64,000 bases of DNA from Thiocapsa rosea (lineage in GTDB: Bacteria; Pseudomonadota; Gammaproteobacteria; Chromatiales; Chromatiaceae): NCBI RefSeq assembly GCF_003634315.1, contig NZ_RBXL01000001.1:604501-668500 (forward strand), in the 5' to 3' direction. Shown piece after piece: positions 1,791-26,426 of the stretch; the first letter of the stretch is position 1, and every line of letters starts with the position of its first letter. The notes beneath the pieces are model-generated. The model saw only the letters and a program-made list of their open reading frames with translations, was not told the DNA's origin and ran no database searches. Position numbers and translations under genes: made by a program.

Positions 1791-1871
1791 TCCCGCTCGG
1801 GCGGCGCGGTGCGCCGCCCGAGAGCTGAACGTTCGGCAGACCCATTCAAGACGACGAGAGGCAACCCACTG

Positions 1872-2090
1872 ATGCCCAATGTGATGATTCGTAAAAGCGA
1901 CGCGGGAGACCTGCTCTTCTATGTCGCAAAAAAGGACATGGAGGAGACGATTGCCTCCGTGGAGCTGGATGACGCCGAACAATGGGGCGGCGAGGTGGAG
2001 CTGACGGACGGGTCGCGTTGGTATATCGACCCGATCAGCCCGCCCCCCGCATTTCCGACGACGCTGCGTTTTAAGCGCGGCGAAGAGTAA
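1872..2090 (+). CDS. nifT: NifT/FixU family protein
   Basis: Small (72 residues) conserved protein encoded directly after nifK in many nif operons. Its biochemical role is unknown and it is usually dispensable. The sequence MPNVMIRKSDAGDLLFYVAK and the later DGSRWYIDP segment are typical of the family. The open frame extends further upstream to 1809, but ATG 1872 matches the family start and follows a GAGAGG sequence. It is co-oriented with nifK and the following ferredoxin. Confidence 0.92.
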   Translation: MPNVMIRKSDAGDLLFYVAKKDMEETIASVELDDAEQWGGEVELTDGSRWYIDPISPPPAFPTTLRFKRGEE

Positions 2091-2104
2091 TCAGGAGAAC
2101 TGAC

Positions 2105-2305
2105 ATGGCCCTGAAAATCGTACGTGAGCTCTGCACCGCCTGCGGTGACTGTGAGCCTTTGTGCCCGACGCAATCCATCACGGCCTGGAAGGGTGTTTAC
2201 CGGATCGATGCCGGCACCTGCAGCGAGTGCGAGGGCGACGGCGAGCCCGGCGTGCCCCAGTGTCTCGATGCCTGCATGGAAGAGGACTGCATCGTCCCGG
2301 CGTGA
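2105..2305 (+). CDS. fdxN: nif-associated 2[4Fe-4S] ferredoxin (FdxN type)
   Basis: A 66-residue dicluster ferredoxin. The first cluster motif is CTACGDCEPLCP (residues 10-21). The second is the nif-type spaced set CSECEGDGEPGVPQC...ACMEEDC. The CIVPA end closely resembles FdxN proteins of diazotrophs. It probably carries electrons for nitrogenase or for FeMo-cofactor assembly. It begins 14 bp after nifT with GGAG ahead of the ATG. I infer FdxN from the short length and the spacing of the second motif; another nif ferredoxin name is possible. Confidence 0.8.
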   Translation: MALKIVRELCTACGDCEPLCPTQSITAWKGVYRIDAGTCSECEGDGEPGVPQCLDACMEEDCIVPA

Positions 2306-2323
2306 TGATTATCGAACAAGGAC

Positions 2324-2357
2324 GTAGGATGGGTAGAGCACGGCGAAACCCATCCTC
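2324..2357. repeat. Palindromic repeat, GTAGGATGGGTAGAGC type (copy 1)
   Basis: The palindrome GTAGGATGGGTAGAGCACGG runs into CGAAACCCATCCTCC, giving a stem of GGATGGGT/ACCCATCC. It lies 19 bp after the ferredoxin stop. The same family occurs in tandem at 2421-2574 and singly at 52776. Confidence 0.8.
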
Positions 2358-2420
2358 CAGACTCCGGCGTCATCAGGTCTGAACCTGGTCGGTTCGTTGC
2401 TGCAGGCGGTCTGTGGGTTT

Positions 2421-2574
2421 GGGTGGCGAGAGGATGGGTTTCGCTGCGCTCTACCCATCCTACGGGTAAGCGCTGGGTGGCGAGAGGATGGGTTTCGCTG
2501 CGCTCTACCCATCCTACGGGTTAGCGTTGGGTGGCGGGAGGATGGGTTTCGCTGCGCTCTACCCATCCTACGGT
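2421..2574. repeat. Tandem array of three ~54-bp palindromic units inside the nif operon
   Basis: Three head-to-tail units start at 2421, 2475 and 2529, an exact 54-bp period. Each contains AGGATGGGTTTCGCTGCGCT followed by CTACCCATCCTACGG. The units are near identical and each can form a GGATGGGT/ACCCATCC hairpin. The array fills much of the 343-bp gap between the ferredoxin and nafY. A continuous open frame crosses it, but this is a by-product of the 54-bp (18-codon) period. Confidence 0.9.
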
Positions 2575-2648
2575 TGAGCTTTGGCGCAATCGTATTGTGC
2601 TCGAGGCTTGCGACCGGCTTCATTACGAATCAGACTGGGTCTAATCCG

Positions 2649-3356
2649 ATGTCAAACGACTCTCTTACCGACGATATCGCTCTGCGCATCGGCCTGGCCG
2701 CACGCACGCTGCCCGAACCGGATCCGGCACGCTTGATTCGCGTCCTCGCCGATGCTGTGGGCCTGCCGCCCACCGCGACCACGCTGGACACCCTGCGGGT
2801 GAAGGATCTCAAGCAGGCTGCGGACGGCGAGCTGGCGGATCTGGATGCGGATCTGCTCAAGTCCATACTGGCTATCCTCAAGGGCGAGACCGGTCAAACG
2901 GTCGCCCCGGCTCCGCCGATCGAGCCCTATACCGAGGGCGACATGCCGGGCTCGGTCCGCGTCGCCTGTGCGTCGAACGGCGGGGATGAACTCGACGGAC
3001 ACTTCGGGGCCGCACGGCATTTCCTGGTCTACCAGGTCTCCGCAGACGAGGTCCGTTTGATCGATGTGCGCGAGGTCGACGAATCCGGCACGGTCGAGGA
3101 CAAGAACGGCCAGCGCGCCGCCTTGATCGCCGATTGCCAGGTGCTCTACGTGGCCTCGATCGGGGGGCCGGCGGCGGCCAAGGTCGTGAAGACCGATATC
3201 CACCCCATCAAAGACGCGGCCGGCGGCAGCGCGCGCGAGCGCATGGTCGCCCTGCAGCGCATTCTCGGCGAGAAGGCTCCGCCCTGGCTCGCCAAGGCAA
3301 TGGGCCAGACGCCCGAGCAGCGGGTCAGGTTTGCGCGCTCGGAGGATGCGGCATGA
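2649..3356 (+). CDS. nafY: NafY/NifY-type dinitrogenase iron-molybdenum cofactor-binding protein
   Basis: A 235-residue two-domain protein. An N-terminal helical domain (about residues 1-90, DPARLIRVLADAVGLPP) resembles the sterile-alpha-motif-like domain of NafY. A C-terminal NifX-type domain (about 100-205) starts with RVACASNGGDELDGHFG, the conserved segment of FeMo-co-carrying proteins. Such proteins bind FeMo-co or its precursors and escort apo-dinitrogenase. ATG 2649 is chosen because the open frame upstream is made by the tandem repeat. The stop overlaps the next start (ATGA). The name could equally be nifY. Confidence 0.85.
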   Translation: MSNDSLTDDIALRIGLAARTLPEPDPARLIRVLADAVGLPPTATTLDTLRVKDLKQAADGELADLDADLLKSILAILKGETGQTVAPAPPIEPYTEGDMPGSVRVACASNGGDELDGHFGAARHFLVYQVSADEVRLIDVREVDESGTVEDKNGQRAALIADCQVLYVASIGGPAAAKVVKTDIHPIKDAAGGSARERMVALQRILGEKAPPWLAKAMGQTPEQRVRFARSEDAA

Positions 3357-3622
3357 TCGCGGAGGAGCGCCTCGACCAGATCACGGAGGTGGTGCGCCGC
3401 GCAGGTCTCAACGCGGAGACCATCGGCGCCTTGCGCGAGGCCTTCGCGGATATCCACTTCACCCATTGCAGCGATGACGATATCGGCGTCAGCAAGCCGG
3501 TACGCGCCGCCGACGGCTTCAACCTCTACCTCGTCGATGGGCGGGAGCATTGCCTGGTCTTGACCGACGATCCGGCGAACGCCACCGGTGTCGTCCTTGC
3601 CGAGGTCGAAGAGGAAGATTGA
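3353..3622 (+). CDS. Small nif-operon-associated protein (DUF6129-like)
   Basis: An 89-residue acidic protein whose ATG overlaps the nafY stop (ATGA at 3353-3356), implying translational coupling. The sequence MIAEERLDQITEVVRRAGL and the motif FTHCSDDDIG recall a small uncharacterised family (I believe DUF6129) that sits next to nafY/nifX in gammaproteobacterial nif clusters. No metal motif or membrane segment is apparent. Function unknown; a role in cofactor assembly is only inferred from position. Confidence 0.75.
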   Translation: MIAEERLDQITEVVRRAGLNAETIGALREAFADIHFTHCSDDDIGVSKPVRAADGFNLYLVDGREHCLVLTDDPANATGVVLAEVEEED

Positions 3623-3686
3623 CCGGCGCGATGCCGGGCCGCATCCTCCTCCCATCAGGTTTTGATCAGACTCGGGGCGGCCGGCA

Positions 3687-3773
3687 ATGGGCAAGCGATC
3701 AAGCAAGTGCTGCAAGCGATACAAGACGGACAAAGCCTGCAAGAAATGTCCGCGAAAACGCTCGAGGTCCTAG
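3687..3773 (+). CDS. Very small Cys/Lys-rich peptide (28 residues)
   Basis: ATG 3687 to TAG 3771-3773 encodes 28 residues starting MGKRSSKCCKRYKTDKACKK, followed by CPRKRSRS. The pattern CC-x8-C-x2-C in a strongly basic background looks like a family of tiny conserved proteins in proteobacteria that begin MGK(R/K)SKxCCKRY. The four cysteines could bind a metal. It lies 64 bp after the preceding gene, with no strong ribosome-binding site. This is recognition from memory of similar peptides, so a chance open frame is not excluded. Confidence 0.6.
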   Translation: MGKRSSKCCKRYKTDKACKKCPRKRSRS

Positions 3774-3980
3774 CCGGGAGACGCCCGGACACCCGCCCGC
3801 TCCCTGCACGGCGCCGAACGCCTTCGCGCCGCGCCGCCTTGTCTCCTTCAGTGTTAAAATCCGCGCGCTCCGGGCCGGACCTCATCTTGCCGGCGACGAT
3901 GGTGTCCAAACCCGAATCGATCCTCACGACATGCTATTTATTTCGCCCGGCTTGGGCGATCAATCTGGTGGAGAAGCCCC

Positions 3981-4301
3981 ATGAAATGCGCAATGTTGGT
4001 GACCGGCAACGGTCCGATCGTGATCGTCACCTCGTATGACTCGCTCGAGAACCCCGACCTGCTCGAACGGCTGAAAGATAAAGGCATCCCGAAATTCCTC
4101 GCCTACGAGATCCCGATGGAGCTGGCCCAAGAGCGCTACAAGGGCCATTTCGAGAAGGTCATGAACGGGTTTACCGAGTCGGACAGCCTCCGGGTGCTCG
4201 ACCACAACGGACATCGCGCCTTCAATCTCTTCACCTGGGCGGAGCTCGGCACCCCTCTCGCCCACGAAAGCCCGCTGGACGATCTCTACCACCACCACTG
4301 A
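3981..4301 (+). CDS. Conserved hypothetical protein (106 residues)
   Basis: Soluble protein starting MKCAMLVTGNGPIVIVTSYD and ending in a histidine run (YHHH). No signal peptide or membrane helix is visible. It reads like one of the small cytosolic proteins found downstream of nif genes in purple sulfur bacteria, but I cannot assign a domain or a reaction. GGTGGAGAAG precedes the ATG by a suitable distance. A REP-like palindrome follows at 4361. Confidence 0.7.
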   Translation: MKCAMLVTGNGPIVIVTSYDSLENPDLLERLKDKGIPKFLAYEIPMELAQERYKGHFEKVMNGFTESDSLRVLDHNGHRAFNLFTWAELGTPLAHESPLDDLYHHH

Positions 4302-4360
4302 GGCGATGTCCGGGAATTCATATCCCGACGAAAGGCAGTGTTCATAACATAAGCTCGGCC

Positions 4361-4442
4361 GGTAGAGTGGACGAGCGAGAGCGAAGTCCACCGATCTCCG
4401 CACCGCCGCTGGTGGACTGCGCTACCGCTTGTTCACCCTACC
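4361..4442. repeat. REP-like palindrome, GTAGAGTGGACGAGCG variant
   Basis: GGTAGAGTGGACGAGCGAGA is followed by GCGAAGTCCACC and then by an inverted partner GGTGGACTGCGCTACC...CACCCTACC. It is related to the GTAGGATGGGTAGAGC family and to copies at 39762, 46197 and 61523. It lies between converging genes (3981-4301 and hppA). The rest of 4302-4551 shows nothing clear. Confidence 0.65.
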
Positions 4443-4551
4443 GCTGCGATTGGCAACGTGGCCGGGTTGATGGGCGAGGCCCGACGACACACGCCTGCGA
4501 GACGATCGCTCCTCCCCGGGAACTCGCCTGCTCAGATCTCCCGAGCCGGGC

Positions 4552-6750
4552 TCAGAGCAGGCTGTAGGTCACGGTCACCCCGGCCATCACGATGGCCATG
4601 ATGCTCATCAGCTTGACCAGGATGTTCAGGCTCGGTCCGGAGGTGTCCTTGAAGGGATCGCCGACCGTGTCGCCGATCACGGACGCCCGGTGTGCGCGCG
4701 AGTTCTTGCCGCCGTGATAGCCGGACTCGATGTATTTCTTGGCGTTGTCCCAAGCGCCGCCGGCATTCGAAAGAAAGACCGCCAGCACGAAGCCGCTCGC
4801 AAGCCCTCCCATCAGCAGGCCGATCACGCCCGCGACACCCAAGACCAGGCCCACCACGACCGGCGCGATGACCGCCAAGAGTGCCGGCAGCACCATCTCG
4901 CGCTGCGCTCCGACGGTGGAAATGGCGACACAGCGCTCGTAATCCGGCTGGGAGGTTCCCTGGAGGATGCCCGGATCTTCGCGAAACTGCCGGCGCACCT
5001 CTTCGACCATCATGATGGCTGCGCGCCCGACCGCCTGGACCGTCAATCCGCTGAAGACAAAGGCGACCATCGAGCCGATCAACAGGCCCACGAGGACGGT
5101 CGGATTGAGCAGGGTGACATTGAAGAAGGTCATGAAATCGGTCAGGGTCGCCTGAGCCGTCGCAACGGTCGCGCCGTTGCCGAGCGTCAGGACCGTCTGC
5201 CCGACATTCACCAGCTCGATACGGATCACCTCGATATAGGAGGCGATGAGTGCGAGCGCGGTCAAGGCCGCAGAGCCGATCGCGAACCCCTTGCCGGTCG
5301 CCGCCGTCGTGTTGCCGAGCGAATCCAGCGCGTCGGTGCGTGCCCGCACCTCGGCACCCAGACCGCTCATCTCGGCGTTGCCGCCGGCATTATCCGCGAT
5401 CGGCCCGTAGGCGTCGCTGGCGAGCGTGATACCCAGCGTGGAGAGCATCCCGACCGCCGCGATGGCCACGCCGTAGAGACCGAGGTTCATCTGGGTGAGA
5501 TCGAATCCGGAGGCGAAGAGGAAAGCCAGCATGGTCCCGGTGCCGACCGCCAGGACCGGAATCGCGGTGGACAGCATCCCGACGCCGACACCCGCGATGA
5601 TCAAGGTCGCCGGTCCCCCTTCGGCCTGAGCCGCGATGAGCCGGGTGGGTCCGTAGCTGGGCGACGTTGAATACTCGGTCGAGCGTCCGACGATGATACC
5701 CGTAACCAGGCCGGTCACCACCGCACCCCAGATGCCCCAGACGTTCGGGATTCCGAGCAGCAGCAGCAACCCCGCGGAGGCCACGACGATCATGAGCGCA
5801 CTGGCGTTGATGCCGCGCGAGAGGGATCCGAGCAGATCCTTTTGGGTCGCACCCTCCTTGGTCTTGACCAGATACACCCCGACGATCGAAAGCAGGATGC
5901 CGATGCCGGCAATGGCGATGGGCGCAACCACGGCCTTCATTTGGAGCGTGGGGTCCAGGACATAGGCGGCCGCCCCGAGCGCGGAGGCGGCAAGAATCGA
6001 GCCGCAATAGGACTCGAACAGGTCGGCTCCCATGCCGGCGACATCGCCCACGTTGTCCCCGACGTTGTCCGCGATGACGGCCGGATTGCGCGGGTCGTCC
6101 TCCGGGATGCCGGACTCGACCTTACCGACGAGATCGGCACCCACATCCGCAGCCTTGGTGAAGATACCGCCGCCGACACGCGCGAACATGGCCTGCATCG
6201 AAGCACCCACGCCGAACGTCAGGATGGTTGTGGTGACCAGCACCATGCGGACCCCTTCTCCGGCTGCGCTGTCCGGGACCAGCAGGTCGGCCAGGATGAA
6301 CCAAACCACGATGTTGCCGAGCCCGAGCCCGACCACCACCAACCCCATGACGGCACCGCTTCGGAACGCGATCTTCAGCGCCTCCGGGAGCGAGGTCCGG
6401 GCGGCCGCGGCCGTGCGCGTGGAGGCACGGGTCGCGGTCTGCATGCCGAAATAGCCGGCGAGCGCCGAGAAGAAGCCCCCGAAGACGAAGGTGAATGGCA
6501 GCCAGGGGTTCTGGACGTGGTAGTAGTAGGCGAGTACGCCGAAGACGATGGTCAGGACCAAAAACACCAGGAACATGATCTTGTACTGCTGGCGCAAATA
6601 CGCCATGGCGCCGTGGCGCACATGGTCTCCGATCTCCTGCATCAACGCGGTTCCCTGGTCCTGCCGGAGCATCTCCTTGAAAAACTTCCGGGCATAGATC
6701 ATCGCCAACAGCGCGGCGATCGGTGCGATCCAAAAGACAGGCTCGTTCAT
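4552..6750 (-). CDS. hppA: Membrane-bound proton/ion-translocating pyrophosphatase, K+-dependent type
   Basis: Integral membrane pump (732 residues, about 16 helices) that hydrolyses PPi and moves H+ (or Na+) across the cytoplasmic membrane; common in phototrophs. The catalytic signature [11 protein letters not shown] is at residues 202-212, followed by the conserved [14 protein letters not shown]. The segment [16 protein letters not shown] has Ala and Gly where K+-independent enzymes have Lys and Thr, so this is the K+-dependent class. The transported ion cannot be settled by eye. It is followed upstream (6849) by an unrelated gene on the same strand, about 100 bp away. Confidence 0.96.
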
Positions 6751-6848
6751 GGGTATTCCAATGGACGTGGGAGGCCAAAAGAACCCGCCGCCGGAGGTGC
6801 GTCGGGCAGGATCCGAGTCGGGGACTCAGGAGGGTCGCGGACGACGGG

Positions 6849-7628
6849 TCACTCAAGCCCGGTGACCTGGGCCGAGCGCCACCAGCCGCGATGACGATTC
6901 TCGAGCGCGTCGAGATCCGGGAAGCGGTAGAAGGCAAAGTCGGTCTGGTCGCCGACGTAGAAGCCGCCTTGGACCATGCGATAGAGCACGCCCTCCTTGA
7001 CCTGCTTGAGCACCAGCTTGCTCGGTTTGGTGTCGTTGTGTTTCAGCTCGTAGAGCACGTCGCGCAGATGGGCGAGGTTCGAATAGGGTAAATCGTCGGC
7101 CGCGCCGTTCTCCGGGTCGGTCGCAAGCTCGCCGATACGCAGCTCGGAGAAGACCAAGCGAGGCACGTGGACCGGATGCGACGGATCAGTGATCGCGTTG
7201 CAGAAGTCGTGCGGCTCCGAGCGGCTGGCGACCATCGGGGTAATGGGACAAAACTCTTGATAGAGATGGAGGCGACCGCCGGGTTCCGGGAGATACACCG
7301 AGCGCGGCAGCTCGAGCGTCTTGCCGTCGTTCGTCACCAGATAGAGGCTGCCGAGTGCGGAGACCGGGATACGCGACAAGACACGGTAAATCGAGAGATA
7401 GACCGAGCGTTTCGGCGCACCATCCGGCTGGGTGATGCAGCGTTCGTCCACCAGATGGAAGGGGAAATCATCGGAGCGGAACGCCGGATCGACCTCGAAG
7501 AAGATCGCCTCGCCTTTTACGTGGGCCTTGGATCCAACCGCGTAATAGCTGCCGAAAGCCTCCGGCTCAAGCATCGACGCGATCAGGGCCTGCGGGATCA
7601 GGGATAGATACAGATGCTTTTCAACCAT
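6849..7628 (-). CDS. Conserved hypothetical protein (259 residues)
   Basis: Soluble protein with start MVEKHLYLSLIPQALIASML at ATG 7628; an earlier in-frame ATG at 7682 would add 18 unlike residues. I recall similar sequences in other phototrophs and cyanobacteria, all uncharacterised. No catalytic motif, signal peptide or membrane segment is obvious. It is co-oriented with hppA but separated by about 100 bp, so joint transcription is possible but not shown. Confidence 0.7.
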   Translation of the reverse strand: MVEKHLYLSLIPQALIASMLEPEAFGSYYAVGSKAHVKGEAIFFEVDPAFRSDDFPFHLVDERCITQPDGAPKRSVYLSIYRVLSRIPVSALGSLYLVTNDGKTLELPRSVYLPEPGGRLHLYQEFCPITPMVASRSEPHDFCNAITDPSHPVHVPRLVFSELRIGELATDPENGAADDLPYSNLAHLRDVLYELKHNDTKPSKLVLKQVKEGVLYRMVQGGFYVGDQTDFAFYRFPDLDALENRHRGWWRSAQVTGLE

Positions 7629-7850
7629 GCCGAGCCTCGCCGTGATGTGCCCGGATGTCCGACCGGATCCGGTGTTTCTCAATTATCACCATAAATGCAG
7701 GCGATGTGGAGAGAAGATCAGGAATCGGTCGAGGTTAACGAGAGCAACGCAGGGAGAGGTCGAGCTGAAGGGGGGGTGGATACGTCCCTGTATCCGAGTC
7801 GACTCCGGCCTCGGCTTGCGCCGAGAGACCGTTAGACGACTGATTCGTCC

Positions 7851-8276
7851 TTATTGTGCGGGAGCGGCAGGAGGAGCCATCGGGGCCATCGGGGCAGGCA
7901 TGCCGCCGTAAGGAGCGCCGTAGCCCGGCCCGCCGTAGGGTGCACCATAGCCATAGCCAGGCGCGCCGTAGGGGGCACCATAGCCATAGCCGGGCGCGCC
8001 GTAGCCGTAGCCCTCGCCATAACCGCGGCCATAGCCACGACCCTGACCGCGTCCGTAGGAACGGCCGCTTCCGCTCATGTTCATGTTGAAATCACCGGTG
8101 CCGTCACCGAACATGTCGCCGAAGTTGTCCATCATACCGCTACCGTAGCCGGGGCCACCGCCGTAGCCGCCGGGACCGCCGTAACCCGGGCCGCCCCACC
8201 AGGCGCTGGCCGAGAAGGAAGCGCCGGCCAGAGCGACAACGGCTGCAAGACCTGCAAACTTGATCGTTTTATTCAT
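7851..8276 (-). CDS. Sulfur globule envelope protein (SgpA/SgpB, CV1/CV2 type)
   Basis: A secreted structural protein that forms the protein shell of periplasmic sulfur globules in purple sulfur bacteria. The 141-residue precursor has an N-terminal signal peptide ([20 protein letters not shown], cleavage near SASA/WW). It is followed by WWGGPGYGG repeats, then the diagnostic block [18 protein letters not shown] and Tyr/Gly-rich YGRGYG/GYGAPYG repeats. Allochromatium vinosum SgpA and SgpB share this layout. The C-terminal part has extra APYG repeats and ends in a Met/Pro/Ala-rich tail ([10 protein letters not shown]), which I do not remember from SgpA/B. The ATG at 8276 is chosen for its signal peptide. 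Confidence 0.88.
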
Positions 8277-8862
8277 GTTCGTCCTACCTCTAATCAGGAA
8301 ACGTTGAGCGCGGGCGTGCCCGCAATGGGGTCTCCGAAGCCGGGGATACTCTAGCCTCCGACTGCGGGCTTGATGTGGAGCCGGTGGCCGAACCTTCTCG
8401 GGGTTGGGCCGGGCTCCGAGGTCAGCCGTGAACAGGGCGCAAACAACCGACCGGCGCGATTTGCCGTGTTGCACAAATCCGGGCAGAAGGGGAGGTTGCG
8501 GGCTCGACGGCCCATCGGAGTAACTGCTGGCCCTGCGAAGAAGCCGGGCCGCTCATTACCGGTAGAAGCAGATCGAGTATAGGGGTCGATGGCGTGCCGA
8601 CGCAACGTATTAAACGGCACCGAGCAGGTCGACCGAGCCGTGATCCAGGTCCGTCGGACGAAACCGGCGCCCCCTTTCCTCAACGAACGCGAGACACCAC
8701 CGAGCACGGCATTCGAGCTAAAACAGCAGCTTCCACGACGACAAGGACGCATCTCACGACCGGGATCGCGACATAACCCCGAGTGACAAACCTTATTTAT
8801 TACGTTGGCTAAAGTGGCGTCTGTCCCGAACGAGTGCCTCATTCGTAGTGCGACCACAGTGA

Positions 8863-8918
8863 CACTTGGCGCAGAGCGCCACGGGGCATGCGTGACACCG
8901 CGGAGCGATGTCACGCGT
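8863..8918. repeat. Dispersed repeat, TGGCGCAGAGCGCCACGGGG type (copy 1)
   Basis: The core TTGGCGCAGAGCGCCACGGG is followed by GCATGCGTGACACCGCGGAG and CGATGTCACGCG. It holds two small hairpins: GGCGC/GCGCC, and CGTGACA...TGTCACG. An almost identical copy lies at 35566-35620. Confidence 0.75.
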
Positions 8919-8954
8919 CCTTCAAGGTGATTTCCGGACAAGGATCTACCGGGG

Positions 8955-8982
8955 TGTAGGGGCGAATTCATTCGCCCCTACA
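8955..8982. repeat. Perfect hairpin repeat GGGGCGAATTCATTCGCCCC (copy 1)
   Basis: Thirteen-base arms TGTAGGGGCGAAT and ATTCGCCCCTACA flank a TC loop. A second copy with one compensated base pair (TGTCGGGGCGAAT) lies at 60032-60059, so the hairpin structure is conserved between copies. Confidence 0.8.
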
Positions 8983-9084
8983 GGCCCAACAGGTCTTCCG
9001 GGCATGCACGGTCTTGCGGACATCCGCGCACCGACGTCGCCTCGAATCCGGAGAGTCCTCCGCACGGCCCGGCCTCGGTCGCGG

Positions 9085-9948
9085 TCAGACGGGGAGCGGA
9101 AGTGCGAGATCCTTCCAAAGCCGCAGCGTCGGACCCGACTGATTCATCGTATAGAAGTGCAGACCGGGCGCACCGCCGTCGATCAGGCGACGGCAGAGGT
9201 TGAGCACGACCTCGTGCCCGAAGGCCCGCAGACTCTCCACGTCGTCGCCGTAACCTTCGAGTCGGCGCCGCACCCAGCGCGGGATCTCGGCACCGCAGGC
9301 GTCGGAGAAGCGTGCGAGCTGCGTGAAATTGGTGATGGGCATGATGCCGGGGATGATCGGCAGGCTGACGCCGACGCGCTCGCAGCTCTCGATGAAGGCG
9401 AAGTAGGCATCCGGGTTGTAGAAGTACTGGGTGATGGCGGCATCCGCACCGGCCTGGACCTTGCGCTTGAAGTTGGCGAGATCGCGCTCGGGACTCCCGG
9501 ATTGCGGGTGATACTCGGGATAGGCCGCGACCTCGATCTTGAAGGCGTCCCCGAACTCTTCCCGGATGAAGGACACCAGCTCGTTGGCATAACGGAAATC
9601 ACCGCCGGTGCCCCCGCCCATGCCGGAGGGAAGATCCCCTCGCAAGGCGACCAGACGTCGGATCCCCTGCTCTCGGTAACGACCGACGATCTCGCGGATC
9701 TCGGCCCGTGCCGAGCCGACACAGGCGATGTGTGGCGCGGTCTCGATGTTGTGTCCGCGCAGCCAGTCGACAGTCTCGAAGGTGCGGTCGCGCGTCGATC
9801 CTCCGGCACCGTAGGTCACCGAGAAGTAGCCCGGCGAGACGCTGTCGAGCTGTGCGATCTCGAGCTTGAGCTTCTCCATCCCTTCCGGGGTCTTGGGTGG
9901 GAAGAGTTCGACGCTGTAGGTCGGGGTTTGCTGTGATTGGAGCGGCAT
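9085..9948 (-). CDS. metF: Methylenetetrahydrofolate reductase [NAD(P)H]
   Basis: FAD-dependent reduction of 5,10-methylene-THF to 5-methyl-THF, the methyl donor for methionine synthesis. The 287-residue protein has family landmarks YSVELFPPKTPEG near the N-terminus, VTYGAGGSTRDRT, ALRGDLP, and a DAAITQYFYN segment. ATG 9948 (MPLQSQQTPTYSVELFPPKT) gives the usual length; the longer open frame upstream runs through repeats. It is last in the metK-ahcY-metF order, so the activated-methyl cycle genes are clustered. A 380-bp gap holding two repeats separates it from ahcY, so it may have its own promoter. Confidence 0.96.
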   Translation of the reverse strand: MPLQSQQTPTYSVELFPPKTPEGMEKLKLEIAQLDSVSPGYFSVTYGAGGSTRDRTFETVDWLRGHNIETAPHIACVGSARAEIREIVGRYREQGIRRLVALRGDLPSGMGGGTGGDFRYANELVSFIREEFGDAFKIEVAAYPEYHPQSGSPERDLANFKRKVQAGADAAITQYFYNPDAYFAFIESCERVGVSLPIIPGIMPITNFTQLARFSDACGAEIPRWVRRRLEGYGDDVESLRAFGHEVVLNLCRRLIDGGAPGLHFYTMNQSGPTLRLWKDLALPLPV

Positions 9949-9956
9949 GGCGTTAG

Positions 9957-9992
9957 AGCCTCCGGCCTCCGGCCTCCAGCCTCCAGCGCGGC
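9957..9992. repeat. Heptad repeat, CCTCCGG/CCTCCAG type
   Basis: GCCTCCGGCCTCCGGCCTCC followed by AGCCTCCAGC consists of five 7-base units directly upstream of the metF start. It belongs to the same variable heptad family as 66-152, 19327-19412 and 22300-22364. Confidence 0.65.
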
Positions 9993-10245
9993 TCACGACA
10001 CGCGATCGGTGGCTTCGAGCCGGCGGCGAATGGGTTGGGATGTGCAGCGCCGCGCACGGCGTCGTCGCCGACCGGGCGCTCCGCGCCGGTAGCGCAAAGT
10101 GCTCGACATAGGCGTGACCCCGGCGAGCGATGTCATGAGCAGATCCAGACGGAGACGACGACAGGCACCGTCGCCGTCTTCGATTCACGGGGCAGGAGCC
10201 CGAAGCGGCTGAAGACGGCGCAATCCAAGGCTCTTCTTCAAAGAC

Positions 10246-10328
10246 TTAAACCGCGCCGACTCCAACGCCTAGAAGGACCCACGAGTTCGCGAAACCCGCA
10301 AACATCGCCGGGGCGCAGCGGGCGCGGT

Positions 10329-10332
<4 letters not shown>
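10246..10332. repeat. TTAAACCGCG palindromic element, copy 1
   Basis: 87-bp element with left end TTAAACCGCGCC and right end GGGCGCGGTTTAA. The right end supplies the TAA stop of ahcY (10329-10331, read on the minus strand). Confidence 0.85.
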
Positions 10333-11735
<1,403 letters not shown>

Positions 11736-11763
11736 GGTTATCAGCTCCTGATGAATCGTGAGT

Positions 11764-11839
11764 GAGCGCCGTTGTCGTGTCGACCCCGCCGCCGAGCCTG
11801 GCCCGGGCTCCGATGGCCCGGGTCGCAACGCTCCTCGGT
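11764..11839 (-). promoter_or_regulatory. S-adenosylhomocysteine (SAH) riboswitch in the ahcY leader
   Basis: Read on the minus strand, the leader contains CCGAGGAGCGTTGCGACC, a CCCGGGC/GCCCGGG hairpin, then CCAGGCTCGG, and finally CAACGGCGCTC. This matches the SAH riboswitch plan: P1 is CCGAG/CTCGG, P2 is the internal hairpin, and the pseudoknot pairs GAGCGTTG with CAACGGCGCTC. These riboswitches switch on ahcY expression when SAH accumulates. The aptamer ends about 28 bases before the ahcY ATG, so control of ribosome access is likely. Confidence 0.9.
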
Positions 11840-11882
11840 AGCGAGGTGAAAAAGGAAGATCAATCCAAATCGGTCATGGGTG

Positions 11883-13073
11883 TTAAATCCCGGCCGCTTC
11901 GCGCAGCATCTCGGCCTTGTCCGTGCGCTCCCAGGTGAAGCCCGGCTCCGAACGCCCGAAGTGACCGTAGGCGGCCGTGTCGCGGTACTTGATCAGGTCG
12001 CGGTTGGTGAGATCCAACATGCGGGTAATTCCGTAGGGACGCAGATCGAAGTGCTCACGGATCAGCTCGATGATGCGATGCTCGCTGATGTTGGCTGTCC
12101 CGAAGGTGTCGATGGACAGAGACGTCGGCTCGGCAACACCGATGGCGTAAGACACTTGAACCTCGCACTTCTCCGCAAGACCCGCGGCGACGATGTTCTT
12201 TGCGACATAACGACCGGCGTAGGCGGCCGAGCGGTCGACCTTCGAGGGATCCTTGCCGGAGAAGGCACCGCCGCCGTGGCGCGCCATGCCGCCGTAGGTG
12301 TCGACGATGATCTTGCGTCCGGTCAGGCCGCAGTCGCCGACCGGACCGCCGATGATGAACTGCCCCGTCGGGTTGATGTGATACTTGGTCTCGCCGTTCA
12401 TCCAGCCAGTGCCGCCGAGCACGGGCTTGATGATCTCCTCCATCACCGCCTCGTGCAGCACACTTTGGCTGACCTCGGGGCTATGCTGGGTCGAGAGCAC
12501 CACGGCCTCCACCGCAGCCGGCTTCCCGTCGACGTAGCGGAAGGTGACCTGGGATTTGGCATCCGGACGCAGCCACGGCAGGGTGCCGTTCTTGCGGACC
12601 TCGGCCTGGCGCTTGACCAGGCGATGCGCGTAATCGATCGCCGCCGGCATGAGCTGATCGGTCTCGTTCGTGGCATAGCCGAACATCATGCCTTGGTCGC
12701 CGGCCCCCTGGGACTCTTCGCTCTCGCGGTCGACGCCTTGGTTGATATCCTTGGATTGCTCGCCGAGCGCGACCAGAACCCCGCAGGTTTGCCCGTCGAA
12801 ACCGACCTCGGAGCCGTTGTAGCCGATATCGGTGACGACCTTGCGCACGATGCTCTCGTAGTCGATCTTGAGGTTCCCGTCCGTGAGCGTGATCTCGCCG
12901 GCCAGCACCACGAATCCGGTCTTGACCAGCGTCTCGCAGGCGACGCGCGCCTTGGCGTGGTTCGGATCGCGGCGAAAGATCTCGTCGAGCACGGCGTCGG
13001 AGATCTGGTCCGCCATCTTGTCCGGGTGGCCCTCGGAGACGGATTCGGAGGTGAAGATATAGTCCTTACTCAT
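11883..13073 (-). CDS. metK: S-adenosylmethionine synthase
   Basis: Makes S-adenosylmethionine from methionine and ATP. The 396-residue protein starts [20 protein letters not shown]. Conserved ATP/methionine-binding segments are [12 protein letters not shown] and [22 protein letters not shown] 13073 is selected over an upstream in-frame ATG (13121) because it matches the family start. It precedes ahcY by 147 bp, a gap that contains the SAH riboswitch. It diverges from the thioredoxin-like gene at 13281. Confidence 0.98.
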
Positions 13074-13280
13074 ATGTCGATGGCCTGCCTTTTGCCCCAA
13101 GAGGTGCGTGTCTGGTTGCAATATGATAGCGATTCGACGGAAAACCGCAAAATCGACCCGCGGGATGGATACGCGCGCCGCCCGGGCTGCGCATCGCCGC
13201 CAAGGATTTTGAAACCGCGAACCTTACGGTAACATGCGGACATGTCCGGTCCGACCTAGGCGTTTACTCGGAGATCTCTG

Positions 13281-13838
13281 ATGGCATCCCTTGAAACCCC
13301 CGTTTGCGACTTCGGGCGCCCTGCCCCGGATTTCGCGCTCCCCGGCACCGACGGCAGGATCTGGACGCGCGACGCCTGCGCCGGCGAGCGCGGACTGCTC
13401 GTGATGTTCATCTGCAACCACTGCCCGTACGTGAAGGCGGTGCGCGAGCGCATCGTTCGGGATGCGCGCGATCTGATGGCCATCGGCATCGGCTGCGTCG
13501 CCGTCATGTCGAACGACACCCGCGACTATCCGGAAGACTCCTTCGAAAATATGCAACGGATCGCCGAGACGCTGAGCTTCCCCTTTCCTTATTTGCTCGA
13601 CGACACCCAAGCAGTCGCCAAGGCGTACGGTGCGGTCTGCACGCCCGACTTTTTCGGCTACAACGCCGCGCTCGAGCTGCAGTACCGCGGACGCCTCGAT
13701 GCCAGTCGCAAGGAGACGGCCCCGGAAGACACCGCACGCGACCTTCACGCGGCCATGTCGCAGGTCGCTCACACCGGTAAAGGTCCGGCGGAGCAGATCC
13801 CGAGCGTCGGTTGCTCCATCAAGTGGAAGACGGCGTGA
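13281..13838 (+). CDS. Thioredoxin-fold (AhpC/TSA-like) redox protein
   Basis: 185-residue soluble protein of the peroxiredoxin/thioredoxin-like group. The N-terminal RPAPDFALPGTDG leads to MFICNHCPYVKAV, with the redox pair C45-x-x-C48 (CNHC). This CNHCPY motif typifies a family of small cytosolic thioredoxin-like proteins often annotated redoxin domain or ResA-like. No signal peptide is seen. A start at ATG 13281 has GGAGATCTCTG upstream. Specific partner unknown. Confidence 0.85.
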   Translation: MASLETPVCDFGRPAPDFALPGTDGRIWTRDACAGERGLLVMFICNHCPYVKAVRERIVRDARDLMAIGIGCVAVMSNDTRDYPEDSFENMQRIAETLSFPFPYLLDDTQAVAKAYGAVCTPDFFGYNAALELQYRGRLDASRKETAPEDTARDLHAAMSQVAHTGKGPAEQIPSVGCSIKWKTA

Positions 13839-22245: not shown

Positions 22246-22299
22246 CGTTGGGCGTCACGCCGTCGCGAGGCCAGTATTCCGGTGGCTTGCGGCTGAAAT

Positions 22300-22364
22300 C
22301 TGATGGCTGATAGCTGATAGCTGATAGCTGATAGCTGATGGCTGATGGCTGGAGGCTGGAGGCT
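22300..22364. repeat. Heptad tandem array GCTGATA/GCTGATG/GCTGGAG
   Basis: About nine 7-base units change stepwise from GCTGATG to GCTGATA (four units), back to GCTGATG, then GCTGGAG. The graded series links the GATAGCT and GGAGGCT versions of this family. It lies 30 bp before the accessory cassette starting at 22394. Confidence 0.85.
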
Positions 22365-22393
22365 GACGCCAACCCACCCATACGGAGACCGCA

Positions 22394-22789
22394 TTGACCC
22401 ACGACACCAAATTCCCCTGCCCCTGCTGCGGCTACCGCGTCCACGATCGTGAGCCCGGCTTTAATCAAGTCTGCCCGATCTGCGGATGGGAGGACGATCT
22501 GACCCAATTGCGCTTCGCCCGGATGCCGGGCAGCAGCAACACCGTGAGCCTGGAAGAGGCCCAACTGAATTTTCGCGACTACGGTGCGTCCGAGCGCCGG
22601 AGCATCGGCAACACCCGCACCCCGGTCGAGGGCGAGATACGCGACGACGGCTGGCGGCCCATCGACCCCTCGCGTGACAATATCGAGCAACCCGTCCGCG
22701 GCATCGCCTACGGCGACTCTTATCCCTGGCCCGACACCACGGTGCTCTATTACTGGCGCATGAGTTATTGGCGACGGGTGGTGGGGTAG
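22394..22789 (+). CDS. Cysteine-rich CPCC-family protein
   Basis: 131-residue protein with two CxxC zinc-knuckle-like pairs near the N-terminus, CPCCGYRV and CPICGWEDD, typical of the CPCC family (small proteins often found in accessory or polymorphic-toxin-immunity settings). The rest is rich in aromatic residues (YPWPDTTVLYYWRMSYW). The start appears to be TTG at 22394 (TTGACCCACGACACC) because no ATG gives a full-length protein. It ends 8 bp before the HerA-like gene. Function unknown. Confidence 0.75.
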   Translation: MTHDTKFPCPCCGYRVHDREPGFNQVCPICGWEDDLTQLRFARMPGSSNTVSLEEAQLNFRDYGASERRSIGNTRTPVEGEIRDDGWRPIDPSRDNIEQPVRGIAYGDSYPWPDTTVLYYWRMSYWRRVVG

Positions 22790-22797
22790 TCCCGGTT

Positions 22798-24309
22798 ATG
22801 AAAACAGCCTGCCAGCGGGGCTTCGGCCACGAGGGCTTTATCTTTAACGGCAGCGCCTTCCACGGCGTCGACGTCAAGATGATCCACGAGAATCGCATAC
22901 AGACCTATGGTCGAGCCGGAATCGCTGAGTTGCTGGGTATCAGCGACGATGAGGAGCCTAACGGCGAAGACGCCGACGGACAGACCAGCGATGCCCCACA
23001 GGATGTAGCTAAGCCCCTTGAGGATGTCGACGTAAGCGGATCCGCCAAAACCGAGCAAGATAGCCCAGCCGCCGAGACTCAGGAGGAGCTAAGCCGCGAG
23101 AAACTCGCACAATCGACCGCGGAATCCGCAAAAGCAGCGGAAGAGAAGCAACGGGAACCGAGCCGCAAGAGCGAATCGGAGACTTCCGGTGGGCAGATTC
23201 ACGTGTTGCTCGGTCGTGATCTGGTGACTGGGGTCGACGTGCGTTGGGATCCGACCGCGACGACACCGAGCCGCCTGTTGAACCAACACTTGCTGATTGT
23301 CGGCAAGAGCGGTTCCGGGAAGAGCGAGACTACGAAGAGCCTGCTGTATGAGCTGGACCGACAGGGCGTCCCTTCAATCATTTTCGACTTTCAGGGGGAA
23401 TACGCGACCGGGGAGTTCTTCGACGTCGTCCGGCCCCAGGTCTTCGACGTCATGGAGGGATTGCCGATCAATCCCTTCGAGATCCCGATCGACCCCCGAA
23501 CCGGGCAGAAACGGCGACCGGTCGAAATGGTCTTTCGGCTGGCCGACACACTGAATGCCGTGTTTTCAGGATCAGGCGACATCCAGCTCGGCAAACTGCG
23601 CGAGGCGATTCAAGAGTGCTACGTCCAGACTGGATTCGACATCATGCAGCCGGCACCTGCGGACAAGGAACCGCCGACGTTGGAGATGTTGGAGGCGGTG
23701 CTGGAGCAGTGGTCCGGCCACGGCGGACAGATCAGGAACCTGCAGGTGCGTTTGCAACCGCTGTTCATGAGCGGGGTCTTCAATCAATCCAAGGCAAGCT
23801 TTAGCTTCGATGACCTTTTCCAGCGGACCACCGTAATCTTGCTGACGGCCGGCATCAAAGATCTGATGCTGGCTGCGTCTCGCTTCCTCCTGGAAAAGGT
23901 CTACGCCGCCATGATGATCAACGGCATGTCCAAATCCTTGCGCTTGATGGTGTGCGTGGATGAGGCGCACAAGCTCTGCAACGACCCGAAGATCACCGAC
24001 CTTGCCAAGGAAGCGCGGAAATATGGATTGGGTCTGATTTTGTCGTCCCAGGAGACTCGCGACTTCCATCCGTCGATCTTCGCCAACGCAGGCACCCAGA
24101 TTGTTCTGGCGCTCGAGGATGCCGATGCGTCGATCATGGCGAGGGTGTACGCGGCGGACAAGAAAGAACAGGGGATGGTCAAGAATTTAATCGTTGGGCA
24201 GGAGAGCGGTGTTGCACTGATCCGATCAACCCACTTCCAACCCTATGGGCAGGTGAGGCTCCAGTCTTTCGAAGACAAAGTCGCGAGCTTGTCTCAGCGG
24301 GTTCGATAG
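22798..24309 (+). CDS. HerA/FtsK-like ATPase (DUF87 type) with charged N-terminal linker
   Basis: 503-residue P-loop ATPase of the HerA-VirB4 group, which assemble as hexameric motors on DNA. The Walker A is GKSGSGKS (residues 169-176) in LIVGKSGSGKSETTKSLL. Further landmarks are the following IIFDFQGEYA, the Walker B LMVCVDEAHKL, and the sensor/arginine region GLILSSQETRDF and NAGTQIVLALED. Residues 1-45 form a small domain, then residues 46-130 are a low-complexity acidic/charged linker. ATG 22798 is preferred to 22768, which would overlap the CPCC gene. It is followed by the STAS-GHKL gene after 26 bp, so an operon is likely. DNA translocation or nuclease partnering is inferred from the family. 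Confidence 0.85.
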   Translation: MKTACQRGFGHEGFIFNGSAFHGVDVKMIHENRIQTYGRAGIAELLGISDDEEPNGEDADGQTSDAPQDVAKPLEDVDVSGSAKTEQDSPAAETQEELSREKLAQSTAESAKAAEEKQREPSRKSESETSGGQIHVLLGRDLVTGVDVRWDPTATTPSRLLNQHLLIVGKSGSGKSETTKSLLYELDRQGVPSIIFDFQGEYATGEFFDVVRPQVFDVMEGLPINPFEIPIDPRTGQKRRPVEMVFRLADTLNAVFSGSGDIQLGKLREAIQECYVQTGFDIMQPAPADKEPPTLEMLEAVLEQWSGHGGQIRNLQVRLQPLFMSGVFNQSKASFSFDDLFQRTTVILLTAGIKDLMLAASRFLLEKVYAAMMINGMSKSLRLMVCVDEAHKLCNDPKITDLAKEARKYGLGLILSSQETRDFHPSIFANAGTQIVLALEDADASIMARVYAADKKEQGMVKNLIVGQESGVALIRSTHFQPYGQVRLQSFEDKVASLSQRVR

Positions 24310-24335
24310 GCTGATTCCATAGAGGTTGAGGCGAC

Positions 24336-25346
24336 ATGGGCGACGGCAGCACAACCGGAGGTTCCGTTTCGGTGATCCAATTGCCCAGGTTTCTGACTGC
24401 CCGGTCTTGCGGAGAGACCATTGCGGTTTGTCAGGCGATCCAAGACGAAGAAAGCGATGTGGTCATTGATGCTGCACGATTGCGCTTTGTCGACCCTTTT
24501 GGCCTCACCCTACTGGGCGCAACTTTTCAAGAGCTTCAGGGCTGGGGGCAAAGAGTTGTCGTTCACCGCGTGAGCGCCGATGTGGGTAGCTACCTTCAAC
24601 GAATGGACCTGTTCAGAGGCGTTGATTTACAAGGCTTCACGCCCGCCGGTCAGCGCTGGGACCGGCGAGATTCACTCGTCGAGCTGACGTGTATAGACGA
24701 TCACACCGCAGCGAGTGACGCCGCGGGGCGGTTGGCGAACGCTTTGATCGGAGCGGTTCCTGGGATAGATCTCAACGAAGAACCGGACGACATGAGCGGT
24801 CAGACCGAAGCTACTCGCCTGGGCTCGCCGATCAAGTATGTCTTGAGCGAGTTGCTTGAAAACGCCCTGACACATGCACGACGCGCGGGGTACAAAGGGG
24901 CGCGGGTGTGGATCGCTGGTCAGTATTACCAGCGCAACGATCTGTTCAGGCTTGCCGTCACCGACAACGGATGCGGGTTTCTGGGGACCTTGCGTGACCA
25001 CCCCGATCTGCGACGAAAGACCCACCGCGAGGCGATCCTGACCGCGATGAAGCCAAGGGTGAGCTGCAACCGGGATTTGGGAATCCGGACGGATACCGTC
25101 AACGAGGGCGTCGGTTTGACGACCGTTTTGCGCATCGCTCGTGCCGCCGATGGACGGGCGCTGATTGCCAGCGGCGACGCTTACCACAACCCAGCAACGG
25201 CCGGTGGCTCTCTGCCGGTCGGCACATTCTGGCAAGGGGTCTCGGTCGCTCTGGAACTGCGGCGTATTAAGCTTGAGACGATAAGGATCGGAAGACTGCT
25301 GCCGACACTAGAGGACATGCCTCGTGTACCGATTCGTTTCGAGTAG
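24336..25346 (+). CDS. STAS domain fused to GHKL (histidine-kinase-type) ATPase
   Basis: 336-residue fusion. Residues about 12-110 look like a STAS domain (DVVIDAARLRFVDPFGLTLL). Residues about 120-310 are a GHKL ATPase with N-box SELLENALTH (171-180), G1 box VTDNGCGF (208-215) and G2 box NEGVGLTT (256-263). No phospho-accepting histidine domain is seen, so it resembles an anti-sigma-type serine kinase or an ATP-driven switch, not a sensor kinase. It lies between the HerA-like and DUF4325 genes. Partner switching between its ATPase and the separate STAS-like protein is inferred from domain type. Confidence 0.82.
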   Translation: MGDGSTTGGSVSVIQLPRFLTARSCGETIAVCQAIQDEESDVVIDAARLRFVDPFGLTLLGATFQELQGWGQRVVVHRVSADVGSYLQRMDLFRGVDLQGFTPAGQRWDRRDSLVELTCIDDHTAASDAAGRLANALIGAVPGIDLNEEPDDMSGQTEATRLGSPIKYVLSELLENALTHARRAGYKGARVWIAGQYYQRNDLFRLAVTDNGCGFLGTLRDHPDLRRKTHREAILTAMKPRVSCNRDLGIRTDTVNEGVGLTTVLRIARAADGRALIASGDAYHNPATAGGSLPVGTFWQGVSVALELRRIKLETIRIGRLLPTLEDMPRVPIRFE

Positions 25347-25388
25347 ACAGGCTTTACTTTTCACCGGCTTCGACCCCATTATCGAAAC

Positions 25389-25712
25389 ATGAGCATCGAA
25401 ACACAGCGCACCCGCCTATCACTGCGGGACGGCATCAAGGTTAACTTCGCGGGTTTGCGAGCCGCCGCTGTGCCTGTGCGCGAACAGGCCGCGGAAGCAT
25501 TGGCACAGGGTCGCGAGGTCGTCTTCGATTTCGCCGGGATCGAAGTGACACAATCCTTTGTCGACGAACTGATCGGCACCCTCATCCTAAGGCATGGCCC
25601 CTCAATCCTGGAACGTCTTGTCTTCAAAAGCTGCTCGGATGATGCCCGAGCCATCATCGAGTTCGTCGCGACGGACCGCTGCGACCAGTTCGTCAGTTCC
25701 CGCTCTCACTGA
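25389..25712 (+). CDS. STAS-like DUF4325 protein
   Basis: 107-residue protein of the STAS-like DUF4325 group. The diagnostic segment is EVVFDFAGIEVTQSFVDELI (residues about 40-59), followed by RLVFKSCSDDARAIIEFV. Anti-sigma-antagonist-like folds usually bind a GHKL kinase partner, which here is encoded 42 bp upstream. DUF4325 genes next to GHKL ATPases recur in accessory islands. No strong ribosome-binding site is seen. Together with the upstream genes it forms a compact HerA/GHKL/STAS cassette. Confidence 0.8.
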   Translation: MSIETQRTRLSLRDGIKVNFAGLRAAAVPVREQAAEALAQGREVVFDFAGIEVTQSFVDELIGTLILRHGPSILERLVFKSCSDDARAIIEFVATDRCDQFVSSRSH

Positions 25713-25796
25713 CCTGCAAGACCGTCTTTGGAGGATGGTTGCGACATCCACGCTCTCGATCTCGGCAATCCCGATGAAAGGGATCGGCACCTTCAC

Positions 25797-26426
25797 ATGA
25801 ACGGGTCGAGTTTTCTCGAGATGACCCATCGCGTTCTTATCCTGTTGTTGACGACGTTTATGCTCGTCGGATGCAGCCGTGCGCCCGAGCTTCCGCGGTT
25901 GCCGAGCGACGCGGTGATCCTGGCGTTCGGCGACAGCCTCACGCGCGGTACCGGGGCAGGCAGCGGCGAGGGTTTCGCGGAGGTTTTGGCGGTGCTGGGC
26001 GGTCGCGAGGTCGTGAACGCGGGCGTGCCGGGGGAGGAAAGCGACGCCGGTCTCGCTCGCCTGCCTAGAATACTCGACGTCGTGCAGCCGGACCTGGTGA
26101 TCCTCGGTCACGGCGGCAACGACATGCTGCGCCGACGCGACCTGGAGCAGACCAAGGCCAATCTCCGGCAGATGGTCATGTTTGCGCGTGACCGGGGCGC
26201 GTCGGTCGTGCTGCTCGGCATCCCGAAGCCGGGGTTGTTCCTCGGCACCCATCCACTCTATCGGGAGCTGGCGGACGATCTCGAAATCCCGCTCGAGGAC
26301 AAGGTGCTGGCCGATGTCCTCGCCGACCGTGACTTGAAAGCGGATCAGATCCATCCTAACGCGGCCGGCTATCGGCAGGTCGCCGAGGCGGTTCACCGGC
26401 TCTTGAAGGACGCCGGGGCGCTCTGA
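25797..26426 (+). CDS. SGNH-hydrolase lipoprotein (arylesterase/thioesterase, TesA-like)
   Basis: Serine esterase of the SGNH/GDSL superfamily. Block I is VILAFGDSLTRG, block III is GHGGNDML, and block V is DQIHPNAAGY with the Asp-His pair. The N-terminus has a lipoprotein signal (LILLLTTFMLVGC), so it is probably anchored in the envelope. ATG 25797 is used; ATG 25821 (MTHRVLILLL) would give a cleaner signal peptide. Substrate unknown; family members act on aryl or acyl esters and thioesters. Confidence 0.9.
   Translation: MNGSSFLEMTHRVLILLLTTFMLVGCSRAPELPRLPSDAVILAFGDSLTRGTGAGSGEGFAEVLAVLGGREVVNAGVPGEESDAGLARLPRILDVVQPDLVILGHGGNDMLRRRDLEQTKANLRQMVMFARDRGASVVLLGIPKPGLFLGTHPLYRELADDLEIPLEDKVLADVLADRDLKADQIHPNAAGYRQVAEAVHRLLKDAGAL

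Follow-up and report, generated by a model that had tools for sequence, protein, structure and literature searches.

A putative STAS-GHKL kinase and DUF4325 pair in Thiocapsa rosea, probably left behind by a decayed MADS/DndH-like restriction-modification operon

A 3.03-kb insert in the Thiocapsa rosea genome (RefSeq assembly GCF_003634315.1, contig NZ_RBXL01000001.1, positions 604,501–668,500; the whole 64,000-nucleotide stretch is called the window, and the host genome comprises 6.1 Mb) was analyzed. It carries a HerA-like ATPase open reading frame (ORF), a STAS-GHKL protein and a short STAS-like DUF4325 protein (Table 1). The reading that we favor, with moderate confidence, is that the insert represents the 3' end of an acquired and since decayed restriction-modification (R-M) operon of the MADS/DndH-like kind, whose CapK/VapK-like pair, belonging to an R-M-linked variant, stayed intact and was left stranded. 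In the window this locus is probably a relic. Its STAS-GHKL and DUF4325 genes have both remained intact, and the pair is a conserved unit, DUF4325 directly following STAS-GHKL in 31 of 32 loci and the exception (L054) running off its contig. An earlier note, made from the letters of the window alone, had described a compact cassette of four same-strand genes (a CPCC protein, a HerA-like ATPase, STAS-GHKL and DUF4325). The follow-up bore out all four ORFs, the intervals of 8, 26, and 42 bp between them, the Walker A/B motifs and the N, G1, and G2 boxes. The cassette itself had to be revised at two members, as the CPCC gene is a genus core gene after whose stop codon the insert begins, and the HerA-like ATPase corresponds only to the C-terminal ~490 residues of a ~1750-aa protein.

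Table 1. Positions of the insert, its genes and sites, and its flanking genes in the window
Feature	Position	Strand	Basis
CPCC protein	22394..22789	+	PF14206 2.5e-28 (Pfam); genus core gene, flank, outside the system
Insert, 3.03 kb	22789..25816		blastn comparison with nine same-genus stretches, six of which have the empty site
C-terminal HerA/FtsK-motor fragment of a MAD8/DndH-like R-M protein	22798..24309	+	alignment to the L048 protein, PADLOC, Pfam
Walker A, GKSGSGKS	23302..23325	+	read from sequence
STAS-GHKL protein (predicted CapK/VapK-like kinase)	24336..25346	+	Pfam, alignment, AlphaFold2, Foldseek
DUF4325 STAS-like protein (VapS-like), 107 aa	25389..25712	+	PF14213 1.9e-13 (Pfam)
Ser56, predicted phospho-acceptor	25554-25556	+	Ser in 25/25 aligned homologues
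GDSL-lipase gene	25728..26426	+	core flank; conserved part from ~25821

Judged by its alignment, the HerA-like ORF is a 5'-truncated remnant from which the nuclease-like region and everything upstream have been lost. It aligned to residues 1264–1749 of a 1755-aa protein of Halochromatium glycolicum DSM 11080 (locus L025/L048, 2993–8260), which is directly followed by the pair, identity being 71% across 486 aa and 83% within the ATPase domain. The homology begins abruptly, window residue 9 corresponding to Halochromatium residue 1264. A D...EVK motif, which in our own reading is of the kind found in PD-(D/E)XK nucleases, lies directly upstream of the break point in both full-length proteins, that of Halochromatium and that of the viral contig L035; the Pfam nuclease models gave no match on the Halochromatium protein. 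The ORF starts with the ATG at 22798 (a TTG at 22768 overlaps CPCC) and its Walker B motif reads VCVDEAH. It matched TrwB_AAD_bind (1e-13) and DUF87 (2.4e-12) in Pfam, and the DndH C-terminus (6e-44) and mad8 (2e-26) in PADLOC, the aligned part of the DndH models being C-terminal only. MADS8 was not among the 25 NCBIfam families listed for the ORF, and the HerA anti-phage helicase model NF042943 scored 44 bits against the required >800. A search of the window with the Halochromatium methyltransferase (MTase) and the L035 HsdM and HsdS proteins, which did not include MAD7, gave no credible match (best E 0.03). No other piece of the long protein could be detected in the host genome, apart from a distant 30% match inside a DndH-like ORF elsewhere. 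The same genome encodes, at G000:C1:4534874-4535935 (L029 5383-11220), a DndH-like ORF of 1945 aa whose C-terminal part is a HerA-type domain; more large ORFs come after it.

A genuine three-gene system, in which the short HerA ATPase would be a functional motor under a STAS-GHKL/DUF4325 switch, is improbable in our estimation. In its favor, none of the three frames is interrupted, the Walker and GHKL motifs are intact, and the ATPase domain of the fragment has evolved no faster than that of Halochromatium (6 against 9 unique changes), with 0.11 nonsynonymous (pN) and 0.65 synonymous (pS) differences. However, such relative-rate and dN/dS tests cannot date the truncation; the pairwise rates span the whole divergence, much of which may precede it. 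Moreover, the intact homologue is 1755 aa long with the break directly after the nuclease-like domain, and a complete short HerA gene was present in no other kinase locus examined, L032 holding a 167-aa stub frame. The search of genomes and plasmids gave no short HerA that could be an ancestral standalone gene. Comparison across loci ruled out a fixed HerA-STAS-GHKL-DUF4325 neighborhood: of the kinase loci that were examined, only three have a MAD8-type motor ahead of the pair, intact in Halochromatium and as a fragment in the window and in genome G161, where the MAD8 piece is shorter than that of the window and lies beside a kinase fragment and a DUF4325 frame. In other genomes of the order with MAD8-like genes (29–32% identity), the kinase match was absent or on another contig. 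The fixed gene order that the earlier note set as a test holds for the STAS-GHKL/DUF4325 pair and fails for HerA. Likewise, its joining of a motor with a GHKL/STAS switch survives as a kinase/substrate-like pair beside part of a DNA-defense motor and not as a dedicated motor-plus-switch system, the pair elsewhere following HsdS, HsdR, a type III Res, a McrC-like gene or no detectable R-M gene.

Two further observations concern MAD8-like genes elsewhere. The viral contig L035 (IMGVR_UViG_3300050333_000099, 1170-13160) carries SspF/DndF-like, MAD7-like, HsdM/mad2, HsdS/mad5, and MAD8-like genes in a row, with an ORF of integrase-like appearance on the other side of the operon, and is perhaps a mobile MADS-like element. 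Locus L032 holds two same-orientation copies of the MAD8 C-terminal end (10218-10610 and 12855-13190) flanking a stretch with a helix-turn-helix (HTH)-like gene, an arrangement resembling the outcome of an insertion at the 3' end of MAD8 that recreated this end.

The insertion site lies between core genes, the order in the window being fba, CPCC, HerA-like, STAS-GHKL, DUF4325, GDSL lipase, pdxH, and isocitrate lyase; fba, pdxH, and isocitrate lyase are our own assignments from their sequences. The site was compared by blastn with stretches from nine of the 10 other same-genus genomes, the contig of the tenth (G114) ending inside fba. In all six stretches holding both flanks (L090–L095), CPCC was directly followed by GDSL with a spacing of ~50 bp, the bases of which differ from the insert. 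CPCC and fba were both present in eight of the nine stretches, the former directly before GDSL in six. CPCC was found and GDSL was not in L096, CPCC was followed by pdxH in L097, and fba was the sole match in L098. The empty sites rule out CPCC as a member of the system. The left edge of the insert lies directly behind the CPCC stop codon, while the listed GDSL start at 25728 falls within the insert. G+C content was 0.55–0.62 in the insert against 0.63–0.68 in fba, CPCC, and GDSL. A repeat scan of the insert borders revealed neither terminal repeats, transposon ends nor target duplications, and a promoter scan gave no match, with 1.2 expected by chance. A close kinase match was seen in none of the 10 other same-genus genomes, the single match (G112) being 25% identical. 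In the Lamprocystis locus L037 the pair lies ~4 kb downstream of fba, without CPCC, and an older insertion site common to that locus and the window is therefore possible. The earlier note had placed the cassette between heptad repeats and an esterase; the esterase flank stands, whereas the tandem repeat (22291–22366; period 7, also 14 and 21; ~9.6 copies of 7 bp) lies upstream of CPCC and outside the insert.

Assessment of the STAS-GHKL protein with Pfam revealed HATPase_c over the cut-off (2.8e-6) and STAS_2 just under it (2.1e-6, 28.2 bits against 29.2). The residues E172, N176, H180, D210, G212, G258, and G260 were invariant in all 21 aligned kinases and G214 in 20 of them; such conservation of the N, G1, and G2 boxes is not due to chance. 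The fused STAS domain carries Pro in 20/21 at what we take to be the phospho-Ser position of SpoIIAA-type substrates. In the AlphaFold2 model (mean predicted local distance difference test score, pLDDT, 86.9) the first STAS strand lies at residue 13. Foldseek against the PDB gave SpoIIAB (1tid_C) as the best match (E 1.2e-3), followed by SpoIIAA and other STAS domains with low-probability unrelated matches in between, and the PDB sequence search returned weak STAS matches (best E 0.0038). The homologue from a Deinococcus gobiensis plasmid matched the STAS model only, yet has the GHKL residues in common; its Trp53 aligns with position 51, which is aromatic in 19 of 21 kinases, CapK and VapK being outside this alignment. 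The nearest named kinases were those of Chromatiaceae. A class-wide search found kinase matches at E 1e-20 in five of 369 genomes, the host genome included, and a further family-level search (G572) added no loci. Similarity of the kinase to DrmA (PADLOC 2.8e-4; phage relative 6e-10) was taken as common GHKL similarity and rejected.

Distant relatives of the kinase could also be observed. A second GHKL gene of the host genome (G000:C1:3030751-3031551; L027 10730-11782) is 24% identical and lies ~3 kb downstream of an HsdS fragment, with ORFs of transposase-like appearance between; no DUF4325 was detected beside it by tblastn. In the Coprococcus phage NatCom_10489 (L019 4998-6002), a relative sits beside a competence/metallo-beta-lactamase-type gene near the genome end. 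The phage locus was rejected as the same pair; its gene is kinase-like, but the 106-aa neighbor has no Pfam match.

The DUF4325 protein is the sole DUF4325 match in the host genome. Its AlphaFold2 model (mean pLDDT 88.6) ends with a helix reaching residue 105, and at 107 aa the protein has no room for a DNA-binding domain. The PDB sequence search gave no credible match (best E 0.076). Conservation of Ser56 was counted within DUF4325 homologues, the corresponding serine of VapS (S48) being outside the alignment.

The association with R-M genes was evaluated in the 32 loci obtained by a kinase-alignment profile search of genome contigs; six Pseudomonas copies were near-identical, leaving 27 non-redundant loci. 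R-M genes lie directly upstream of the pair on the same strand in seven of the 27, with gaps of -4 to +232 bp, and are of type I, type III, McrBC-like, and MADS-like kinds. These are Hsd genes in L040, L041, L042, and L043 (hsdS overlapping in all of them but L041), a type III-like MTase with a ResIII helicase in L036 (scanned as L022), a C5-MTase with AAA_5 and DUF2357-PDDEXK_7 genes in L039, and an N6-MTase with the MAD8-like protein in L048 (scanned as L025). Looser arrangements comprised HsdR upstream of a kinase broken at its 5' end and separated from it by another ORF (L047), HsdR downstream (L046), a D12 methylase with an AlwI-type enzyme further upstream and an opposite-strand ORF between (L056), and R-M genes on the other strand (L064 and L065). 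Locus L055 holds a 46-residue methylase remnant and the plasmid locus L018 an annotated adenine methylase on the other strand. Some stretches end early, L038 and L046 having <1 kb upstream.

A panel of 25 R-M proteins, drawn from the same loci, was then compared between 28 loci (the 27 and L018) and 20 control segments of 20 kb, which were taken at set, non-random positions from four same-family genomes, three of them belonging to the genus of the window or being the host genome itself. Any R-M gene was present in 12/28 loci against 2/20 controls (p=0.02), and at least two contiguous R-M genes in 9/28 against 0/20 (p=0.006). Direct abutment in 7/28 corresponds to a binomial p of 1e-6 at a background of 2%, which is our own assumption, and is stronger evidence for the R-M link than the panel enrichment.

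Several results weigh against the favored reading. Without self-hits, the enrichment fell to 7/28 against 2/20 (p=0.27, not significant), which is the strict figure as the panel was drawn from the same loci, and 16/28 loci, L018 and L055 among them, lack an R-M gene by the panel. No conserved partner gene was seen downstream of the pair. The NCBIfam matches to MAD8 and MAD7 remained under their curated cut-offs, the N-terminus of the Halochromatium protein reaching 69 bits and its viral relative 112 bits against 175 for MADS8, and the MAD7-like gene of L035 reaching 395 against 410. The best Foldseek matches of DUF4325 were STAS domains but weak (E 0.044 or worse), its register to SpoIIAA Ser58 is uncertain by one, and the Deinococcus DUF4325 carries Ala at position 56 with a Ser one residue earlier.

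The evidence points to different histories for the pair and for the R-M genes. In the kinase tree, the copies of L039 (C5/McrBC-like) and L047 (type I) are sisters with support of 100/99, while L036 (type III) and L037 (no R-M gene seen) form a group with the window, outside which L048 (MAD8) falls. Identity between the window and Halochromatium is also unequal, being 83% for the MAD8 ATPase domain, 48% for the kinase, and 52% for DUF4325. Such sister copies beside different R-M kinds, together with the unequal identities, would be explained by separate histories.

On the favored reading, a MADS/DndH-like R-M operon would have been acquired, after which the methylase, specificity, and nuclease parts were lost and the motor C-terminus and the pair remained. 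By homology, single-stranded DNA (ssDNA) from damage or restriction may bind between the STAS and GHKL domains and activate the kinase; the stacking aromatics are W68 in CapK and F54 in VapK (PMC13373217). The activated kinase would phosphorylate DUF4325 at Ser56, at the start of the second helix, and the phosphorylated DUF4325 would let go of a bound protein. In intact loci the protein set free would most likely belong to the R-M system, the other candidate being an effector from a different locus. That the pair controls restriction enzymes directly is plausible and the simplest guess, since DUF4325 carries no DNA-binding domain and no neighbors other than R-M subunits were seen to recur; an unlinked effector as the released partner is nearly as likely. 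Extended to all loci, the pair might be a portable restriction governor, a damage-sensing kinase with an inhibitor or activator that binds R-M subunits directly, is freed by phosphorylation and has been traded among type I, type III, McrBC-like, and MADS-like systems. We regard this broader proposal as tentative and somewhat doubtful. If true, it would constitute dedicated enzyme-level control of restriction after DNA damage, unlike ClpXP and CapS-type repression. How restriction enzymes are kept off the own chromosome after damage is only partly explained; in restriction alleviation ClpXP acts on type IA and IB enzymes, while EcoR124I (type IC) is alleviated without ClpXP (PMC3874165). A pair at the 3' end of unrelated R-M operon kinds, without a DNA-binding domain or toxin in the loci seen, is a concrete candidate.

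As a less probable alternative, the target of the pair may be an unlinked effector, or the pair may time a different defense as CapKS does, its R-M position reflecting ssDNA from cutting or mere clustering in defense islands. CapKS lies directly downstream of an R-M system in 88 of 443 pairs and regulates the downstream operon (PMC13373217), and the R-M partners observed here are too unlike for one obvious common binding surface. The pair of L043 is followed at 11627-13320 by an AAA_21 gene and an RloB-like gene scoring 31.1 bits (cut-off 31.5), which places the pair between R-M genes and a possible second defense unit; ORFs of similar appearance occur in L047 (11290-12981). However, DUF4325 offers no DNA-binding domain, the next ORF lies on the other strand in 12 of the 27 non-redundant loci (by crude gene calls), and among the same-strand followers scanned (L036, L041, L043, and L045) only those of L043 are of immune type. 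Furthermore, the three hsdS overlaps suggest co-translation with R-M subunits.

Decayed copies were also recovered. Five occur in the family, outside the panel sources, with an R-M piece near three of them (a MAD8 fragment in L032 and HsdR-like pieces in L033 and L034). In four (Chromatiaceae loci L030, L032, L033, and L034) the kinase remains as pieces of its C-terminal part and DUF4325 as a stop-free frame, while in the fifth (L031) the kinase is in pieces and no DUF4325 was seen. Counting L037, L047, L059, and L060 as well, a broken kinase accompanies an open DUF4325 in eight loci and the reverse was not seen. Such a pattern could be expected of an inhibitor that is the last to be lost, and could also be chance given the lengths of 336 aa for the kinase and 107 aa for DUF4325, with assembly errors possible too; the decayed loci come from two genera and represent perhaps only two events. 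A VapKSC-type toxin-antitoxin system whose PIN toxin was lost, in which DUF4325 might be retained as an antitoxin, would account for the stop-free frames in four of the five family copies and for the Deinococcus plasmid, where kinase, DUF4325, and PIN occur in what we assign as VapKSC-type order. We consider this origin unlikely: a PIN homologue was found near the pair in none of the 32 loci (tblastn with one PIN query only, hence a weak test), and the bias in the eight loci could be chance.

Comparison with named systems placed the motor and the pair differently. MADS is the nearest named home of the motor, the parent protein having a nuclease-like motif followed by a HerA/FtsK domain and L035 carrying five MADS/Ssp-like genes. 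The window differs from MADS in keeping the C-terminal motor only, with no methylase or specificity gene found beside it, and from DndFGH in matching the C-terminal part of the DndH models only. HerA/FtsK domains have been captured repeatedly by nuclease-bearing defense proteins (PMC10853773), the main text of which does not contain the terms STAS and GHKL. SpoIIAB/SpoIIAA and RsbW/RsbV share the closest folds, the Glu/Asn box of GHKL and a STAS substrate Ser near a helix start; in contrast, the window kinase has a fused STAS domain with Pro at the phospho-site, and the insert holds no sigma factor gene.

The remark in the earlier note that no named system matches is out of date, as CapKS and VapKSC are close relatives of the pair. 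CapK is an ssDNA-activated HTH-STAS-GHKL kinase and CapS a repressor with STAS (1–111) and winged HTH (wHTH; 112–184) domains (PMC13373217, EMBO J 2026). As in CapKS, the kinase gene of the window is directly followed by a STAS gene, 42 bp away, and the arrangement recurs in 31/32 homologous loci; both are linked to defense genes, CapKS to immune operons and partly to upstream R-M systems. The window DUF4325 differs from CapS in lacking a wHTH, its kinase from CapK in lacking the N-terminal HTH, and the pair is followed by a core GDSL gene whereas CapKS is followed by an immune operon. In VapKSC, the short STAS protein VapS inhibits the PIN toxin VapC and its phosphomimic no longer binds it, according to the same description. 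The window shares with VapKSC a STAS-GHKL protein without HTH, a short STAS protein and a conserved acceptor Ser (S56, 25/25), but no VapC/PIN gene is present (GDSL follows, and tblastn with one PIN query was negative), and part of the window-type loci have upstream R-M genes instead of PIN. In the open-access literature no description of an R-M-linked variant without wHTH or toxin was found, and DUF4325 is named there in two papers, neither of which concerns this function; the datasets of PMC13373217 might include some of these loci. Having neither wHTH, HTH, downstream immune operon nor PIN, the pair is of the broad CapK/VapK kind and falls in neither named system, suggesting a CapK/VapK switch that is broader and more modular than first described.

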